From contig NZ_BBWV01000001.1 of NCBI RefSeq assembly GCF_000974785.1, forward strand, positions 186,001 through 250,000: a stretch of DNA of 64,000 nucleotides, written 5' to 3'. Below the pieces are notes generated by a model. That model was not told where the DNA came from. It was given only the letters and a program-made list of their open reading frames with translations, and did no database searches. Positions 5,132 to 26,015 of the stretch are shown one piece after another. This DNA comes from Flavihumibacter petaseus NBRC 106054 (GTDB taxonomy: Bacteria; Bacteroidota; Bacteroidia; Chitinophagales; Chitinophagaceae). Numbering within the stretch: the first letter of the stretch is position 1; every line of letters starts with the position of its first letter. A program made the translations under genes and the position numbers.

Positions 5132-6247
5132 ATGGAAAAAAACATCACCGTAATTCTGGGAGACGGCATCGGACCTGAGGTAACCCGTCAGGCCGTGAAA
5201 ATCCTGGAAGCGATTGCCAGCCATTACCATTATCATTTTCATTTCCGCTATGCCCTGATGGGCGCGGATGCGATTGACAAAACAGGCAGCCCTTTGCCTG
5301 ATGAAACCATTGAAGCATGCCTGAACAGCGATGCCATTTTATTCGGTGCGATAGGACATCCGAAATATGACAACGATCCTGCTGCCAAAGTGCGGCCGGA
5401 ACAGGGACTGCTGAAACTGCGCAAGTCATTGCAATTGTTTGCCAATATCCGCCCGGTGACCCACTACCCTTCCCTGCAGCATTTGTCACCACTCAAGGCG
5501 GCACTACTCGAAGGCGTGGATATGGTAATCTACCGTGAACTGACCGGTGGTATCTATTTCGGGGAAAAGACCATCAGTGAAGACGGCCAGCAGGCCAGCG
5601 ACAACTGTGTATACAGCATCAGCGAGATTGAGCGGATCGCCCACCTTGCTTTCCAGGCAGCGCGCAACCGCCGTAAAAAAGTAACCCTGGTAGACAAAGC
5701 CAATGTGCTGGAGACCTCGCGGTTGTGGCGCAAGGCGGTGAAGGCCATCGGAGAACAGTATCCGGATGTAACCCTCGATTTTCTGTTCGTAGACAACGCA
5801 GCAATGCAACTGATCCTGAATCCACGGCAGTTCGATGTTGTGCTGACAGAAAACATGTTTGGTGATATCCTGAGTGATGAAGCCAGTGTGCTGGCAGGAT
5901 CGCTGGGACTGTTGCCTTCTGCCTCTGTGGGCAATGGCGGCGCACTGTTCGAGCCCATACATGGTTCTTATCATGATGCAGCTGGAAAAGATATTGCCAA
6001 TCCATTGGGCGCCATACTTTCAGCAGCCATGCTGCTGGATCATTTCGGCGCTCACGAAGCAGCATCCAAAGTGCGGATGGCAGTGCAATGGACACTGGAA
6101 AACGGATTTGTGACCAAGGATATCGACCCGGTGAATTTTTATTTCACCTCCACCATCGGCGAACTGATCGCTGACGTGGTGCAGGATAAGATTCCATTGG
6201 AGCTGCATGCGGAGAATATCCGCCTGCGCAAGTCGACGATTATATAA
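5132..6247 (+). CDS. leuB: 3-isopropylmalate dehydrogenase
   Basis: LeuB oxidatively decarboxylates 3-isopropylmalate with NAD to the leucine keto acid. The 371-residue protein has the N-terminal ILGDGIGPEV motif, RxxxxLFANIRP and YRELTGGIYFGE. The isocitrate/isopropylmalate dehydrogenase signature begins NMFGDILSDEAS at residue 241, followed by GSLGLLPSAS and EPIHGSYHDAAGKDIANP. It starts at ATG 5132, 7 bp after the ABC gene. The genes for the intermediate enzyme (leuC and leuD, isopropylmalate isomerase) are not beside it or anywhere in the window. No terminator follows leuB, so leu transcription may run into the ilv leader. Confidence 0.93.
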   Translation: MEKNITVILGDGIGPEVTRQAVKILEAIASHYHYHFHFRYALMGADAIDKTGSPLPDETIEACLNSDAILFGAIGHPKYDNDPAAKVRPEQGLLKLRKSLQLFANIRPVTHYPSLQHLSPLKAALLEGVDMVIYRELTGGIYFGEKTISEDGQQASDNCVYSISEIERIAHLAFQAARNRRKKVTLVDKANVLETSRLWRKAVKAIGEQYPDVTLDFLFVDNAAMQLILNPRQFDVVLTENMFGDILSDEASVLAGSLGLLPSASVGNGGALFEPIHGSYHDAAGKDIANPLGAILSAAMLLDHFGAHEAASKVRMAVQWTLENGFVTKDIDPVNFYFTSTIGELIADVVQDKIPLELHAENIRLRKSTII

Positions 6248-6287
6248 AAAATATCGTATAGTTCTTTATTTATTCAGGAGACGGCGT

Positions 6288-6295
6288 TATATTCG
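6288..6295 (+). promoter_or_regulatory. possible -7 element for the ilv leader transcript
   Basis: TATATTCG matches the Bacteroidota -7 consensus TAnnTTTG at all but one specified base. It lies 18 bp before the leader peptide ATG, which would give a short untranslated region. No good -33 TTTG is present at the usual distance, so this is only a candidate. Transcription may also enter from the leu genes upstream. Confidence 0.3.
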
Positions 6296-6312
6296 TGATA
6301 ATACACGACTTC

Positions 6313-6411
6313 ATGGCGTTAACCGGAAATATAGTGATCAATCGTTCTGCCAGCAATATTATTGCGGTGGTCCTTGTTGTCATTTCCGGTTCGCAGGAGG
6401 TGGTGTTATGA
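6313..6411 (+). CDS. ilv leader peptide (32 codons, 15 branched-chain residues)
   Basis: ATG 6313 opens a 32-codon frame ending at TGA 6409-6411. It encodes 5 Ile, 7 Val and 3 Leu. Codons 16-24 (6358-6384) read IIAVVLVVI, so eight of nine are regulatory amino acids, and codons 30-32 read VVL. The frame lies directly upstream of an intrinsic terminator and of ilvE-D-B-N-C. This is the defining architecture of ilv-type leader peptides such as enterobacterial IlvL and IlvB leaders. Its role would be to let ribosome speed through Ile/Val/Leu codons report charged-tRNA levels to the transcribing polymerase. It is too short for routine gene calling. Seen: sequence, composition and position. Inferred: translation and function. 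Confidence 0.85.
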   Translation: MALTGNIVINRSASNIIAVVLVVISGSQEVVL

Positions 6412-6463
6412 TGTAAATAATCAACAAGCATATAACGGTCCGCCTCCAAAGAGGCGGACCGTT
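6321..6463 (+). promoter_or_regulatory. transcription attenuator: alternative leader, antiterminator and terminator helices
   Basis: Three mutually exclusive pairings can be read directly. (1) AACCGGAAAT at 6321-6330 pairs perfectly over 10 bp with 6382-6391, enclosing the leader codons. (2) Antiterminator: GGAGGTGG at 6396-6403 pairs with 6440-6447 (one G-U) and GTTATG at 6405-6410 pairs with 6431-6436 (one G-U), about 14 bp around a small internal loop. (3) Terminator stem 6434-6446 with 6451-6463. A ribosome stalled at codons 16-20 leaves the antiterminator arm free. A ribosome reaching the stop codon (6409-6411) covers that arm, so the terminator forms. The geometry matches the classical amino-acid attenuation model. 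Confidence 0.8.
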
Positions 6464-6468
6464 TTTTT
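6434..6468 (+). terminator. intrinsic terminator of the ilv attenuator
   Basis: A perfect 13-bp stem (arms 6434-6446 and 6451-6463, core GGTCCGCCTC) with a CAAA loop is followed by seven T residues (6462-6468). It lies between the leader peptide stop and the ilvE start, so it would stop transcription before the structural genes unless the antiterminator forms. Confidence 0.9.
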
Positions 6469-6505
6469 ATGCCCATGTAACGGCCGTCACCAAAAAAATA
6501 AACAT

Positions 6506-7420
6506 ATGGGTAACTACGTAAAAGGAAACAATTATTATAACCAGGATACCTTCCTGTACCTCAACGGCGCTTTCGTAAGAGCAGCGGACGCGAAGATGGA
6601 CCTGTACAGCCAGTCGCTTCATTATGGCTATGCCGTATTTGAAGGGATCCGTGCCTATCGCACCGAATCGGGCGAGACGCGCATTTTCAAGGCGACAGAG
6701 CACTATGATCGTCTCGCCAATTCAGCAAGGCTGGTCAACCTCCCTTACCGGTTCGACAACAAAACGCTGATCGACGCCACTTATGAACTCCTGGAGATGA
6801 ATATGCTGCAGGACGCTTATATCCGCCCGGTCGTATTTGCTCCGGCGAACATGAGTTTCCTTCCCAATACCGATTCCAACATCACGATCCAGGTTTGGGA
6901 AATGCAGCCTTTCCTGGGAGACCGCCTGTTGCGGGTGATGAGTTCCTCCTTTGAACGGCCTAACCCTCGCGGTTTCCATATAGAAGCAAAAGCATCCGGA
7001 CACTATGTGAATTCGCTGCTGGCCAGCCAGGAAGCCAAAGCCAAAGGATTTGACGAGGCCTTGCTCAGCGATATGAATGGCTTTATTGCAGAAGGCCCCG
7101 GTGCCAATATGTTCTTTGAGCGTGACGGTAAACTATATACCCCCTCTGCAGGCAATATCCTTCCAGGCATCACCCGCGCTACGGTGCTGGAGATCTGTGC
7201 AGCGGAAGGCATTGCAGTAGAAGAAGGCAAATTTAAAATGTCGGAACTGAAAACTGCCGATGCGGCATTCTTCTGTGGCACAGCCGCGGAAGTGATCGGC
7301 TGGGAAAGCATCGACAACTACCAGTTTCCGAAGCCCTGGGCACAAACGCTGAGTGCGCACGTCCAGAAGGTTTATAAATCCTGGGTAACCGAAAAATCAA
7401 CAGCAACCATTAGTCAATAG
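6506..7420 (+). CDS. ilvE: branched-chain amino acid aminotransferase
   Basis: IlvE is a PLP class IV aminotransferase that transfers the glutamate amino group to the keto acids of Ile, Val and Leu. The longer open frame extends back to 6362 through the leader and terminator. ATG 6506 is chosen because it follows the hairpin, has an A-rich upstream context and starts the usual MGNYVKGN N-terminus, giving 304 residues. Visible features are [11 protein letters not shown], the PLP lysine in EAKASGHY (Lys162) and the class IV segment [13 protein letters not shown]. It is the first gene of the ilvE-D-B-N-C operon under the attenuator and is followed by ilvD after 8 bp. Confidence 0.93.
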
Positions 7421-7428
7421 ATAAATTT

Positions 7429-9114
7429 ATGTCCAACCCACTGAACAAATATTCGCGCACCATTACACAGGACCCCACACAACCTGCAGCCCAGGCAATG
7501 TTTTACGGCATTGGTCTTACTGACGATGATCTTAAAAAAGCTCAGGTCGGAGTCGTCAGCATGGGATATGACGGCAACACCTGCAACATGCACCTGAATG
7601 ACCTGGCTAAAGTGATCAAACAGGGCATCTGGGATGAATCGCTGGTCGGTCTTATTTTCAATACCATCGGTGTGAGTGACGGTATGAGCAATGGTACCGA
7701 TGGCATGCGCTTTTCGCTGGTGAGCCGTGATATCATCGCTGATTCCATCGAAGCAGTTTGCGGTGCGCAGTATTATGACGGCCTGATTGCCGTACCGGGT
7801 TGTGACAAGAATATGCCGGGTTCCATCATCGCGATGGGAAGACTGAACCGTCCTGCCATCATGGTATACGGCGGTACTATTGCACCAGGTCATTACAAGG
7901 GACAGGACCTCAATATTGTTTCTGCGTTTGAAGCATTGGGTCAGAAGATCGCCGGACAATTGTCTGAAGCAGATTTCAAGGGAATCGTGAAAAATTCCTG
8001 TCCCGGTGCCGGAGCCTGTGGCGGCATGTATACGGCCAACACCATGTCTGCAGCCATTGAAGCATTGGGCATGAGTCTTCCCTATTCATCTTCCAACCCG
8101 GCGCTGAGCCAGGAAAAACAGGACGAATGCCAGGCTGCGGGGAAGGCGATCAGGTTGTTGCTGGAAAAAGATATCAAGCCACGGGACATTATGACCCGCG
8201 AGGCTTTTGAAAATGCACTGGTACTGATCACCATCCTGGGCGGATCTACCAATGCGGTGCTGCATCTTATCGCCATGGCCAAAAGTGTGAATGTTGAGCT
8301 CACACAGGATGATGTTCAGAAAGTGAGTGACCGCATACCCGTACTGGCAGATCTCAAGCCCAGTGGAAAATATATGATGCAGGACCTGCACCATCATGGT
8401 GGTGTGCCTGCAGTGATGAAATATCTGTTGAAAAAAGGCCTGCTGCATGGTGACTGTCTCACTGTTACCGGAAAGACCCTGGCAGAAAACCTGGCAGACG
8501 TTCCTGAAATTGATTTTGCTACCCAGCAGATCATCCTGCCGATGGAAACGCCGATCAAGGCTACAGGGCATTTGCAGATCCTATATGGTAACCTCGCTGA
8601 AGGCGGAAGCGTTGCCAAGATCAGCGGTAAAGAAGGAGAAAGCTTTACCGGTCCGGCACGCGTGTTCGACGGCGAGCAGGAACTGATTGCCGGCATTGAA
8701 AGCGGCCGGGTCAAAAAGGGCGATGTGGTGGTGATCCGCCAGGTAGGTCCCAAAGGCGCGCCGGGCATGCCCGAAATGCTGAAGCCTACCAGTGCCATTA
8801 TTGGTGCGGGCCTGGGCAAATCAGTTGCCCTGATTACAGATGGCCGGTTCAGTGGCGGAACCCATGGTTTCGTGGTGGGACATATCACCCCGGAAGCATA
8901 CATGGGAGGAACGATCGCACTGGTTCAGGACGACGATACCATTGAGATAGATGCGAAGACCAACCGCATTGACCTGAAGGTGAGCGACGATGAAATCGCG
9001 CGCCGCCGCGAAGCGTGGAAACAGCCCGCACTGAAAGCAACCAAAGGAATTCTTTTCAAATATGCCCAGTCGGTAAAGGACGCCAGCCAGGGCTGCGTAA
9101 CCGACGAAGCATAA
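7429..9114 (+). CDS. ilvD: dihydroxy-acid dehydratase
   Basis: IlvD dehydrates 2,3-dihydroxy-isovalerate and 2,3-dihydroxy-3-methylvalerate to the keto acids. The 561-residue length is normal. Iron-sulphur and active-site motifs are present: PGCDKNMPG (Cys125), [18 protein letters not shown] (Cys191, Cys197) and the C-terminal [19 protein letters not shown]. The start at 7429 lies 8 bp after ilvE, and ilvB follows after 11 bp. No defect is seen. Confidence 0.95.
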
Positions 9115-9125
9115 AACCTATTATC

Positions 9126-10874
9126 ATGAGCACAGCAACAGCAGCATCAGCAGAACCGAAAAAACACACAGCCATTCCGGCCACCACCACCATCAGTGGC
9201 TCGGTTGCGGTACTGGAGGCATTTATTGCGGAAGGCGTTGACACCATCTTTGGTTATCCGGGTGGCGCTATCATGCCGATTTATGATGCCTTGTACGATT
9301 ATACGGAGAAACTCAATCACATCCTGGTGCGCCACGAACAGGGTGGCATTCATGCGGCGCAGGGATATGCCCGCACCTCCGGAAAAACCGGTGTGGTATT
9401 CGCTACGAGCGGCCCCGGTGCGACCAACCTGGTAACCGGACTGGCCGACGCGATGATCGATTCTACCCCACTGGTTTGCGTAACCGGCCAGGTATTCGCT
9501 CATCTCCTGGGAACGGATGCCTTCCAGGAAACCGATGTGATCAATATCACCACCCCGGTCACCAAATGGAACTACCAGGTAACAGATGCAAACGAGATCC
9601 CCCATGTGCTGGCCAAGGCATTTTACATTGCCGGCAGCGGCCGTCCCGGACCCGTGCTGATCGACATCACCAAGAATGCACAGCTGCAGCAGTTTGCCTA
9701 TGAAGGATATAAGAAATGCGATCACATCCGGAGCTACCGGCCGAAGCCGCTGGTGCGCAAGGAATATATCCGCCAGGCGGCTGACCTGATCAACCAGGCC
9801 AAAAAGCCATTTGTGCTGTTCGGACAGGGAGTGATCCTCGGGAAAGCAGAACAGGAATTCCGTGCCTTCATTGAAAAGTCGGGTATTCCTGCAGCATGGA
9901 CCATCATGGGCCTTAGTGCACTGGCTACTGACCACCCGCTGAATGTTGGCATGCTTGGTATGCATGGCAACTATGGTCCAAATGTGCTGACCAACGAATG
10001 TGATGTACTGATCGCGATCGGGATGCGCTTTGATGACCGGGTAACCGGCAGGCTGGATAAATATGCCAAACAGGCCCAGGTGATCCATCTCGATATTGAT
10101 CCCGCAGAGATCGATAAAAACGTCAAATCGACCGTTCCGGTGTGGGGTGATTGCAAGGAGACGCTTCCCCTGCTGACCGAACTGGTTGATCAGAAAGTGT
10201 ATCCGCAATGGCTGGAAAAGTTTCATGACTACCGCAAACAGGAAGAAGAGCAGTGCATTCAGCCGGAAATGCATCCCGAAGGGGAAGTGATGACGATGGC
10301 AGAAGTATTGGATGCACTGAACGAGCTTACCGGCGGTGATGCCGTGATCGTTACGGACGTGGGCCAGCACCAGATGGTGGCGTGCCGGTATGCAAAATTC
10401 ACGCAGAGCAAAAGCAATATCACTTCCGGTGGACTGGGAACGATGGGATTCGGATTGCCGGCTGCAATCGGTGCAAAATATGGTGCTCCTGAACGCCAGG
10501 TAGTAGCCATCATCGGAGACGGCGGCATCCAGATGACAATCCAGGAACTGGGAACGATCATGCAATTCGGTGCTGCGGTGAAAATCATTATCCTCAACAA
10601 CCAGTTCCTGGGCATGGTAAGACAATGGCAGCAACTGTTCCATGACAAGCGCTATTCCTTTGTGAACATTACCAGTCCTGATTACATCGCGGTTGCCAAA
10701 GGCTATTATATCGAAGCGCAGAAAGTGGAAGTAAGGGAGCAATTGCGCGGAGCCCTGAAACAGATGCTGGATCATGATGGCGCCTATCTGCTGGAGATCA
10801 TGGTAGGCAAGGAAAACAATGTATTCCCGATGGTTCCACAGGGCTGCAGCGTAGCGGAAATCCGGTTAAAGTAA
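9126..10874 (+). CDS. ilvB: acetolactate synthase, large catalytic subunit
   Basis: This is a thiamine-diphosphate enzyme that makes acetolactate or acetohydroxybutyrate, the first step common to the Val/Leu and Ile branches. The open frame extends to 9015 inside ilvD, but ATG 9126 just after the ilvD stop is the sensible start and gives 582 residues. Catalytic Glu71 lies in VRHEQGG. The ThDP motif begins GDGGIQMT at residue 464 and runs to the asparagines of IIILNNQFLGMVRQW. Pro- and Gly-rich substrate-loop motifs such as PGGAIMPIYDAL are intact. The small subunit ilvN follows after 15 bp. A long open frame on the opposite strand is a shadow. Confidence 0.95.
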   Translation: MSTATAASAEPKKHTAIPATTTISGSVAVLEAFIAEGVDTIFGYPGGAIMPIYDALYDYTEKLNHILVRHEQGGIHAAQGYARTSGKTGVVFATSGPGATNLVTGLADAMIDSTPLVCVTGQVFAHLLGTDAFQETDVINITTPVTKWNYQVTDANEIPHVLAKAFYIAGSGRPGPVLIDITKNAQLQQFAYEGYKKCDHIRSYRPKPLVRKEYIRQAADLINQAKKPFVLFGQGVILGKAEQEFRAFIEKSGIPAAWTIMGLSALATDHPLNVGMLGMHGNYGPNVLTNECDVLIAIGMRFDDRVTGRLDKYAKQAQVIHLDIDPAEIDKNVKSTVPVWGDCKETLPLLTELVDQKVYPQWLEKFHDYRKQEEEQCIQPEMHPEGEVMTMAEVLDALNELTGGDAVIVTDVGQHQMVACRYAKFTQSKSNITSGGLGTMGFGLPAAIGAKYGAPERQVVAIIGDGGIQMTIQELGTIMQFGAAVKIIILNNQFLGMVRQWQQLFHDKRYSFVNITSPDYIAVAKGYYIEAQKVEVREQLRGALKQMLDHDGAYLLEIMVGKENNVFPMVPQGCSVAEIRLK

Positions 10875-10889
10875 TCAACAATCAACAAC

Positions 10890-11477
10890 ATGAAACAGGA
10901 ATTCACCATCACCGTATATACTGAGAACCAGATTGGTTTACTCACGAGGATCGCTATTATCTTTTCACGGCGGAAAATCAATGTGGAAAGCCTTAACACC
11001 TCTCCTTCCGAGATCGAGAACATTCACCGTTTCAATATCGTGATCAATGAAACGGAAGAAGTGGTAAAGAAACTTTGCCGCCAGATTGAGAAGCAGGTGG
11101 AAGTACTCAAAGCATATTACAGCAGCAATGATGAGATCATCTGGCAGGAACTGGCTTTGTACAAAGTGCCTACCGATCAGGTTGCCGAGAAGGTTCAGGT
11201 AGAGCGTTTGCTGCGCCAGTACGGCGCCCGCGCGGTAGTGATCCGTACAGACTACACGGTATTTGAAGCCACAGGTCACCGCGAAGAAACAGATAAGCTC
11301 ATTGAGATCCTCGGTGAATATGGACTGATCGAATTTGTACGGAGTGCGCGCGTGGCGATCATCAAGAACTCCAAGGGATTCCATGACAAAATCAGGGAAT
11401 TTGAAAAGCAGGAGCCCGGTGAAGAAGTGGTGGAGAACGAGTACCTCGACAAGAACGAAAGCATTTTCAGTATGTAA
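10890..11477 (+). CDS. ilvN: acetolactate synthase, small regulatory subunit
   Basis: This 195-residue protein begins with an ACT domain (residues about 3-75: FTITVYTENQIGLLTRIAIIFSRR and INVESLNTSPSE). Such domains bind the feedback inhibitor valine in IlvN/IlvH. A second ferredoxin-like domain follows, as in IlvH (about 160 residues), plus a longer acidic C-terminal tail (EKQEPGEEVVENEYLDKNE) that is typical of neither short form. It activates and confers feedback sensitivity on IlvB, its immediate upstream neighbour. Confidence 0.92.
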   Translation: MKQEFTITVYTENQIGLLTRIAIIFSRRKINVESLNTSPSEIENIHRFNIVINETEEVVKKLCRQIEKQVEVLKAYYSSNDEIIWQELALYKVPTDQVAEKVQVERLLRQYGARAVVIRTDYTVFEATGHREETDKLIEILGEYGLIEFVRSARVAIIKNSKGFHDKIREFEKQEPGEEVVENEYLDKNESIFSM

Positions 11478-11533: not shown

Positions 11534-12583
11534 ATGGCTAAATTAAATTTCGGCGGCGTTGAAGAAAATGTGGTAACCCGCGAAGAGTTCCCCCTGGCAA
11601 AAGCACAGGAGGTTTTAAAGAATGAAACCGTTGCGGTTATCGGCTATGGCGTACAGGGACCTGGCCAGGCATTGAACCAGCGAGATAATGGCATCAACGT
11701 AATCGTTGGCCAGAGAAAAAATTCCAAAACATGGGACAAAGCCATCGCCGACGGTTTCGTTCCCGGTGAAACACTTTTTGAAATTGAGGAAGCACTGGAG
11801 CGCGGCACCATCATCTGCTACCTGCTGAGTGATGCTGCACAGATTGCCCTGTGGCCTACAGTTAAAAAGCACCTGACCAAAGGAAAGGCTTTGTATTTCT
11901 CTCACGGATTTGGCATCACCTTCAACGAGCAGACCGGCATTATTCCGCCAGCTGACGTGGATGTTTTCCTGGTTGCGCCGAAAGGAAGCGGTACTTCCCT
12001 GCGCCGGATGTTCCTGCAGGGCCGTGGCCTGAACAGCTCTTACGCTATCTTCCAGGATGCTACCGGCAAAGCCCGTGAGCGCGTTGTTGCCCTGGGTATT
12101 GCAGTAGGAAGCGGTTATCTCTTCGAAACCGATTTCAAAAGAGAAGTATATTCCGATCTGACTGGCGAACGCGGAACCCTGATGGGCGCGATCCAGGGAA
12201 TCTTTGCTGCACAGTACCAGGTACTGCGTGACAAGGGACATACGCCAAGTGAGGCATTCAATGAAACAGTTGAAGAGCTGACACAATCACTCATGCCGCT
12301 GGTTGCTGAAAACGGTATGGACTGGATGTATGCCAACTGTTCTACTACTGCACAACGTGGTGCGTTGGACTGGTGGAAGAAGTTCCGTGATGCAACCTCT
12401 CCGGTATTCAAAGAATTGTATGAGAGTGTAGCTACCGGAAAAGAATCACAGCGTTCCATTGATTCCAACAGCCAGGAAGATTACCGCGAGAAGCTCGATG
12501 CAGAACTGAAAGAACTGCGTGAAAGCGAAATGTGGCAGGCCGGCAAAACCGTGCGCAGCCTTCGTCCGGAGAATCAGAAATAA
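11534..12583 (+). CDS. ilvC: ketol-acid reductoisomerase
   Basis: IlvC performs alkyl migration and NAD(P)H reduction of acetohydroxy acids. The 349-residue protein has the Rossmann motif VIGYGVQGPGQ (Gly37 onward), the nucleotide-specificity loop VGQRKNSKTW, the catalytic histidine region YFSHGFG and VAPKGSGTSLRR. The C-terminal knotted domain includes EKGH-type residues in LRDKGHTPSEAFNETVEE. It is the last gene before a strong terminator. The 56-bp gap after ilvN is A/T-rich without a clear promoter. Confidence 0.95.
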   Translation: MAKLNFGGVEENVVTREEFPLAKAQEVLKNETVAVIGYGVQGPGQALNQRDNGINVIVGQRKNSKTWDKAIADGFVPGETLFEIEEALERGTIICYLLSDAAQIALWPTVKKHLTKGKALYFSHGFGITFNEQTGIIPPADVDVFLVAPKGSGTSLRRMFLQGRGLNSSYAIFQDATGKARERVVALGIAVGSGYLFETDFKREVYSDLTGERGTLMGAIQGIFAAQYQVLRDKGHTPSEAFNETVEELTQSLMPLVAENGMDWMYANCSTTAQRGALDWWKKFRDATSPVFKELYESVATGKESQRSIDSNSQEDYREKLDAELKELRESEMWQAGKTVRSLRPENQK

Positions 12584-25773: not shown

Positions 25774-25907
25774 TTTTCGTTGTTTTGGTGCAATAACTGG
25801 CAGCGATCGTCCCCGATTTCGGGCTATGAATATAAGAAAAACCACAAATTTTATAAACTAACACTTGTTATGTCACTCCTGGTGTGTATTTTCATTCCTA
25901 CAAAGTT

Positions 25908-26015
25908 TTGAAAACACAGGTTCAACATATCACCCTTCACTCCACGCAAGCCTCTGCATGCGGGACTGTTGTTTTCATTTCCACCACCACCACAACAACT
26001 ACCACAACCCGTTAA
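25908..26015 (+). CDS. probable thr leader peptide with eight consecutive threonine codons
   Basis: In this frame, codons at 25983-26006 read eight Thr in a row (ACC ACC ACC ACA ACA ACT / ACC ACA), followed by ACC at 26007 only after the frame is checked as the last of the run, then CGT and TAA 26013-26015. Counting every codon from 25983 to 26009 gives nine triplets of the form ACN. The frame also carries Ile before the run (VVFIS). The third-position changes (C, A, T) are silent only in the Thr frame, which argues for Thr coding over the His- or Pro-rich readings. thrA starts 87 bp later. There is no ATG in frame; TTG 25908 (35 codons) or GTG 25884 must serve. That and the unclear terminator lower confidence. 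Confidence 0.6.
   Translation: MKTQVQHITLHSTQASACGTVVFISTTTTTTTTTR

Follow-up and report, generated by a model that had tools for sequence, protein, structure and literature searches.

A predicted ribosome-mediated attenuator ahead of the ilvEDBNC operon of Flavihumibacter petaseus, conserved in many Chitinophagaceae

The interval between leuB and ilvE of Flavihumibacter petaseus NBRC 106054 carries what we take, with a probability of roughly 0.9, to be a ribosome-mediated transcription attenuator of the ilvEDBNC operon, which would sense charged Ile- and Val-tRNA. We favour this reading because its place, the codon signature, the antiterminator, arm swaps between species, covariation of the terminator, the distance from codons to arm, and leaders found ahead of hisG, trpE and pheA all agree. 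Many related bacteria keep this device, so the leader is a conserved element and very probably a real translation-sensing switch, in a bacterial group for which few such switches are on record. Positions (Table 1) refer to the window, i.e. the whole stretch of 64,000 nucleotides that was analysed.

Attenuators of enterobacteria, notably those of E. coli ilvGMEDA and ivbL, combine a leader ORF of cognate codons with a protector, an antiterminator and a terminator. The sequence between leuB and ilvE holds a cognate-codon ORF, a predicted intrinsic terminator and an antiterminator overlapping the end of the ORF. The genes downstream were named from NCBIfam profile matches, and these agree with the original prediction of an ilvE-D-B-N-C order, ilvN being below its cut-off.

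Table 1. Features of the ilv leader and its flanking genes in the window
Feature	Position	Strand	Basis and remarks
leuB, upstream gene	5132-6247	+	TIGR00169 above cut-off
-33 element TTTA, 19 nt 5' of the -7 box	6265-6268	+	commonest form in relatives TTTG
-7 element TATATTCG, 17 nt 5' of the leader start codon	6288-6295	+	Bacteroidota TAnnTTTG type
presumed transcript 5' end; outer protector segment, a complement of the antiterminator arm	6303-6312	+	folds; start presumed
leader peptide ORF, 32 codons	6313-6411	+	translation MALTGNIVINRSASNIIAVVLVVISGSQEVVL followed by stop; codon signature of relatives
protector core 5' arm, pairs with 6382-6394	6316-6330	+	folds
control codons IIAVVLVVI (codons 16-24)	6358-6384	+	translation; codon signature of relatives
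protector core 3' arm	6382-6394	+	folds; a ribosome stalling at the final control codons would overlap it
antiterminator 5' arm GGAGGUGGUGUUAUG, overlaps the leader stop codon	6396-6410	+	folding, shuffles, relatives
antiterminator 3' arm, overlaps the terminator 5' arm	6431-6447	+	folding, shuffles, relatives
terminator 5' arm	6434-6446	+	folding; covariation in relatives
terminator 3' arm	6451-6463	+	folding; covariation; perfect 13 bp with the 5' arm
T7 tract, two T inside the stem	6462-6468	+	sequence
ilvE, first regulated gene	6506-7420	+	TIGR01122 above cut-off
ilvD	7429-9114	+	TIGR00110 above cut-off
ilvB	9126-10874	+	TIGR00118 above cut-off; start codon picked by eye
ilvN	10890-11477	+	NF008864, E 1.4e-31, slightly under its cut-off
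ilvC	11534-12583	+	TIGR00465 above cut-off

Translation of the leader ORF reproduces exactly the predicted composition and the predicted run of control codons: 15 of its 32 codons specify Ile, Val or Leu (5 I, 7 V, 3 L). No Shine-Dalgarno sequence is visible, on reading the sequence, in its short 5' UTR of about 10 nt. A -7 box is present in 75 of the 85 non-redundant leaders; in 44 of these 75 it is separated by 17 or 18 nt from the start codon, as called by a script that errs in some rows (e.g. L008, L073). TTTG occurs at the same spacing as the putative -33 element TTTA of the window in 31 of the 75 box-bearing leaders, as a raw count. The -33/-7 assignment follows the promoter consensus. 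Because of the box at 6288-6295, the transcript probably starts near 6301-6303, about 10 nt 5' of the leader AUG; its first bases would therefore be complementary to the antiterminator arm.

The folding energy of the leader (6300-6480) is -71.5 kcal/mol, whereas 200 dinucleotide shuffles give -43.4 (z -7.2). The perfect 13-bp terminator with its T7 tract is confirmed at the predicted place. So is the antiterminator predicted to compete with it at the leader stop codon: it is the fold obtained when the terminator 3' arm is left out (-20.3 kcal/mol), with a z of -3.3 when the upstream strand alone is shuffled. The protector had been described as a 10-bp helix (6321-6330/6382-6391). This helix is indeed a perfect complement, but the competing role given to it does not hold: it makes no contact with the antiterminator arm, and a fold computed without the terminator 3' arm contains both. 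According to the folding model, the part that competes with the antiterminator is an outward extension of the protector (pairs 6316-6318/6392-6394, 6308-6312/6397-6401 and 6303-6306/6403-6406) that the original prediction did not list; the 10-bp core alone does not compete. The segment 6303-6411 taken by itself has a z of -4.3, and the extended protector (6303-6330/6382-6406) does fold. For an RNA ending at 6450 with no ribosome, the best static fold is nevertheless the antiterminator with the 10-bp core, not the extended protector. Moreover, the completed terminator wins static folding in every state modelled, even with a stalled ribosome. Static folding alone does not reproduce the states of the model below; in the ilv leader, as in classical attenuators, the order of synthesis must decide among the folds.

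The element would work as follows. Transcription would begin at its own promoter, about 10 nt 5' of the leader AUG. On an RNA carrying no ribosome, the 5' end and the early codons would pair with the region past the control codons, so that the antiterminator arm is hidden and the terminator forms. With ample Ile and Val, a ribosome translating the leader would reach the stop codon and cover the antiterminator arm, and the terminator would form as well. If Ile- or Val-tRNA runs low, the ribosome would stall at codons 16-24 with its front edge just before GGAGG, and would sit on the protector-core 3' arm; as 6431-6447 emerges, the antiterminator would then form, and the polymerase would read through into ilvE. 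What the sequences establish is the set of parts with their conservation, the competing pairings and the agreement of the codons with the operon; the start of transcription, translation of the leader, stalling, read-through and the amino-acid response are inferred from these.

With the enterobacterial ilv attenuators this leader shares a cognate-codon ORF, an antiterminator and a terminator, a predicted protector, a stop codon near the antiterminator and the target pathway. It differs from them by its 5' UTR of about 10 nt with no visible Shine-Dalgarno sequence, and by a presumed transcript 5' end that can mask the antiterminator arm. The parts are placed as in the classical model overall, as predicted, except that the control codons do not lie in the 5' arm of the protector but border its 3' side.

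Conservation was assessed with R1, a covariance model built on the 3' portion of the leader, at a match threshold of E 0.01. R1 matches 177 of 294 Chitinophagaceae genomes, in 70 of 92 genera, and 142 of the 294 fall below 1e-6 (hand count); under strict filters 117 family genomes have no match. The background at this threshold is about 10%, i.e. 31 of 288 non-family genomes, a few of these matches being genuine ilv leaders. At the 30 best R1 loci leuB is always upstream, and ilvE is downstream, or ilvD without ilvE (4 of 30). Scored with eight query proteins, the neighbourhoods of 100 loci have as first protein downstream ilvE (72), ilvD (27) or none (1), and as last protein upstream leuB (86), leuA (1) or none (13), many flanks being short. 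One of these 100 loci (L087/L148, genome G018) has a Chitinophagaceae leader ahead of a gene that is not ilv and is 35% identical to the window ORF at 816-2375; in the leuB-ilvE interval of that genome the script found no leader.

Aligning the leuB-ilvE interval of related Chitinophagaceae had been proposed as a check, and most relatives do keep the Ile/Val codons, the antiterminator and a terminator that covaries. The first alignment comprised 20 leaders, after removal of three duplicates (L027, L029, L032) and of three relatives with no interval (L003, L015, L024): in the latter there is no leader, the leuB and ilvE matches being only 13-17 nt apart. In the model alignment (A3), which includes three reverse-strand chance matches, 10 of the 13 terminator pairs show changes on both sides, with 136 such cells versus 36 in shuffles. 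The core pairs of the antiterminator are kept in 92.7% of the cells of this alignment, versus 51-75% when the strands are slid; they are near-invariant, and only 4 cells have changes on both sides. In some species, e.g. L114 and L136, all three strands changed together (by eye). Against shuffles of the upstream strand the median antiterminator z over 100 leaders is -2.8; it lies below -2 in 77 of them and at -2 or above in the other 23.

For the swap test five leaders whose frame or hairpin was miscalled (L065, L096, L091, L140, L112) were dropped, and the remaining 95 were reduced to 85 at 90% similarity. The native pairing is better than the swapped ones in 84 of 85 leaders for the terminator (p=8e-16; a swap equal or better in 1), in 74 for the whole antiterminator (p=1e-10; 11) and in 66 for its distal part (p=1e-8; 19). 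For the protector the figure is 71 (p=2e-11; 14), i.e. the extended pairing is kept across species on average. These p values ignore phylogeny, while swapping among relatives is in itself conservative.

The control codons are highly biased. I/L/V fill 719 of 756 core-codon cells (84 leaders, nine codons each, hand sum), or 635 of 672 when the last core codon is set aside, that one being I/L/V by construction in a frame picked for I/L/V content. Their second positions have an entropy of 0.0-0.6 bits versus 0.8-1.8 for the third (84 leaders). Val and Ile dominate and Leu is rare (26 of 756, hand sum), so that Ile and Val are probably what the element responds to first. Of the Ile, Val and Leu codons named in the original prediction, Leu is therefore a small minority in the family.

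Counted from the first base of the final I/L/V codon, the GGAGG arm begins at 15 nt in 63 leaders, out of the 82 (of 85) that gave a distance, and at 14 nt in the window. The codon table lacks L098, where no arm was found, hence the 84 above. The front edge of a stalled ribosome ends at about this distance. The arm lies in one reading frame in 78 leaders and in another in 6, including that of the window (QEVV instead of GGG). As the arm keeps its place while the frame shifts, the bases are conserved, not the peptide. We also considered GGAGG as a Shine-Dalgarno sequence. This was discarded: leaders of the Flavobacteriales type follow the same logic with an unrelated arm, GAGAAAG pairing with CTTTCTC.

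These data bear on whether the product of the leader might itself be functional, either as a small membrane protein or as an arrest peptide that senses a free ligand while still nascent; any stalling would then depend on the peptide and not on charged tRNA. The leader peptide is strongly hydrophobic and conserved, as such a function would have it. Core substitutions stay within I/L/V, however (Phe 0, Met 5 and Ala 10 of the 756 cells), unlike those of an ordinary transmembrane segment, and past the control codons the reading frame of the peptide shifts although the RNA arm stays. Leaders ahead of the his, trp and phe genes, described next, also match their own operons by codon content. We thus regard a peptide function as very unlikely, and retain attenuation.

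In the same genome, hisG is preceded by a leader MKSFMQHHHHHFLPSR (HHHHH) with a terminator (L228:1218-1331) and trpE by a leader MIFKQHNQWWWHTNSSGVL (WWW) with a terminator (L229:1323-1440; for trpE this genome only). A leader MMNHNAFGRFYFYFYFFTSRRPAMLCVRSAN (FYFYFYFF) with a terminator lies ahead of pheA, 163 to 67 nt before the match to the PDT domain (L232). Thirty family genomes were searched per gene, 25 of them having hisG and 23 the pheA domain. A cognate leader with a terminator was found at 22 of the 25 hisG loci (a further one shows a leader without a terminator, and two lack a leader) and at all 23 pheA loci. Controls with exchanged codons gave 0 of 23, and ORFs at 8 of 25, of which 2 with a terminator. 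All 23 pheA leaders hold both Phe and Tyr codons, which suggests that both amino acids may be sensed. By their sequence, the cognate hisG, trpE and pheA leaders support the view that this genome makes general use of ribosome-mediated attenuation.

Among the 32 terminators of the window (both strands) three others have a weak I/L/V ORF at 5 of 8, and none at 6 of 8. Ahead of leuA (2376-2536) no Leu leader was seen by eye. At 25857-26015, ahead of an aspartokinase/homoserine dehydrogenase gene (26103), a frame that might be a Thr leader ends in nine consecutive Thr codons; its stop codon falls, by eye, within a small hairpin loop, and there is no ATG and no clear terminator.

R1 transfers poorly outside the family: the best of the 31 outside matches has an E of 1.4e-5 and the other 30 range from 2.2e-4 to 0.01. 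We read 26 outside loci, of which 4 have a blast match to the ilvE or ilvD of the window; at a fifth (L151) the next gene has its best NCBIfam matches, below cut-off, to the small subunit of acetolactate synthase. In Flavobacteriales and others, ilvE is preceded by Ile-rich leaders whose arm and terminator are unrelated ones. A class-wide draw gave a window-type ilvE in 22 of 197 genomes (E 1e-50). Its 20 non-Chitinophagaceae loci include 16 with an upstream I/L/V leader and terminator (L214 doubtful), 11 of them by strict scoring, and 4 with none. When these 20 loci are taken together with 9 further ones, a leader accompanies 31 of 35 terminators upstream of ilvE (23 strict), versus 8 (0 strict) of 51 other terminators of the same loci.

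A second model, R2, matches 27 of 396 genomes; some of the cassettes that it detects lie between ilvD and ilvB, others ahead of ilvN or leuA. At L180, L181, L195 and L196 an Ile/Val leader with its terminator is located inside the operon, between ilvD and ilvB. Nine loci (L020, L025, L177, L184, L185, L186, L187, L188 and L201) have two complete Ile/Val cassettes in series, ahead of ilvE or ilvN; 14 of the 18 units show an antiterminator z of -2 or less, the exceptions being both units of L025 and one each of L177 and L186. Two loci of the 20-locus draw also have two cassettes (L211 by script, L221 by adjacent R2 matches), while the window has only one. Two leader ORFs in series are likewise described for the tandem attenuators of Salmonella mgtCBR, but those answer to ATP and proline, whereas both cassettes of the relatives carry Ile/Val runs (PMC3641672).

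Could the hairpin merely end the upstream leu transcript, the ORF and the alternative pairings being coincidental? As leuB is directly upstream, the hairpin would also block read-through from leu. Yet a promoter-like box is found in 75 of 85 leaders, the I/L/V codons and the antiterminator are conserved, and in other families similar cassettes lie between ilvD and ilvB or before the ilvN-like gene of L151. We judge a simple leu terminator highly unlikely beside an attenuator of ilvEDBNC.

A ligand-binding RNA, either riboswitch or T-box, with an incidental ORF, would fit the strong structure of the leader. Against it, neither the window nor any of 13 related loci has an Rfam family at its gathering threshold (below it, the best matches are an sRNA, ncS025, and the leaders for Trp, Thr and Phe), and conservation tracks the codons and the mutually exclusive helices. 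This makes such an RNA extremely improbable, and attenuation by a translating ribosome the reading that we keep.

The original prediction presented leader attenuation as best known from Proteobacteria and Actinobacteria. Vitreschak 2004 reportedly included Bacteroidetes/Chlorobi, and Lopatovskaya 2010 is further prior work. A survey of 2010 added Firmicutes to Proteobacteria and Actinobacteria, beyond which its authors had known of no such system (PMC2965389). Leader-peptide control of an ilv operon is reported for Corynebacterium ilvBNC, which belongs to a different phylum (PMC11857589, PMC10272879). Bacteroidota are not untouched either: a passage on Flavobacterium psychrophilum, of the same phylum, gives strong clues for leader-peptide attenuation ahead of amino-acid operons, but names no operon and gives no sequence family (PMC9723704), and one on B. 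thetaiotaomicron mentions short ORFs reminiscent of it (PMC7366714). The Bacteroid-trp RNA motif (RF01692), a cis-regulatory candidate of Bacteroidetes, concerns by its name another operon, trp, and has no match in the window (PMC2864571). Passages of PMC4833913 and PMC8305728 contain no ilv case in Bacteroidota. No description of a Chitinophagaceae ilv leader was found in a full-text collection that holds few subscription papers. The Chitinophagaceae ilv leader appears to be new; hints of such attenuation in the phylum are already in print.

Taken jointly, these observations can be read, at what we consider even odds, as an old and general attenuation regulon of Bacteroidota (Ile/Val, His, Phe/Tyr, Trp), divergent in sequence between families and alike in design, free of Shine-Dalgarno sequences, with a 5' end that masks the antiterminator and, in several lineages, tandem Ile/Val cassettes acting as successive gates. 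These tandem cassettes provide a natural test of serial gating. The leaders explain many very short ORFs ahead of biosynthetic operons, and a covariance model now covers an element that Rfam does not recognise. Leader-peptide attenuation needs a ribosome close behind RNA polymerase. The leaders of Chitinophagaceae and the divergent ilv versions of other Bacteroidia therefore make this coupling directly testable in the phylum; if the general regulon is true, ribosomes would track RNA polymerase closely in a group where this is hardly documented.
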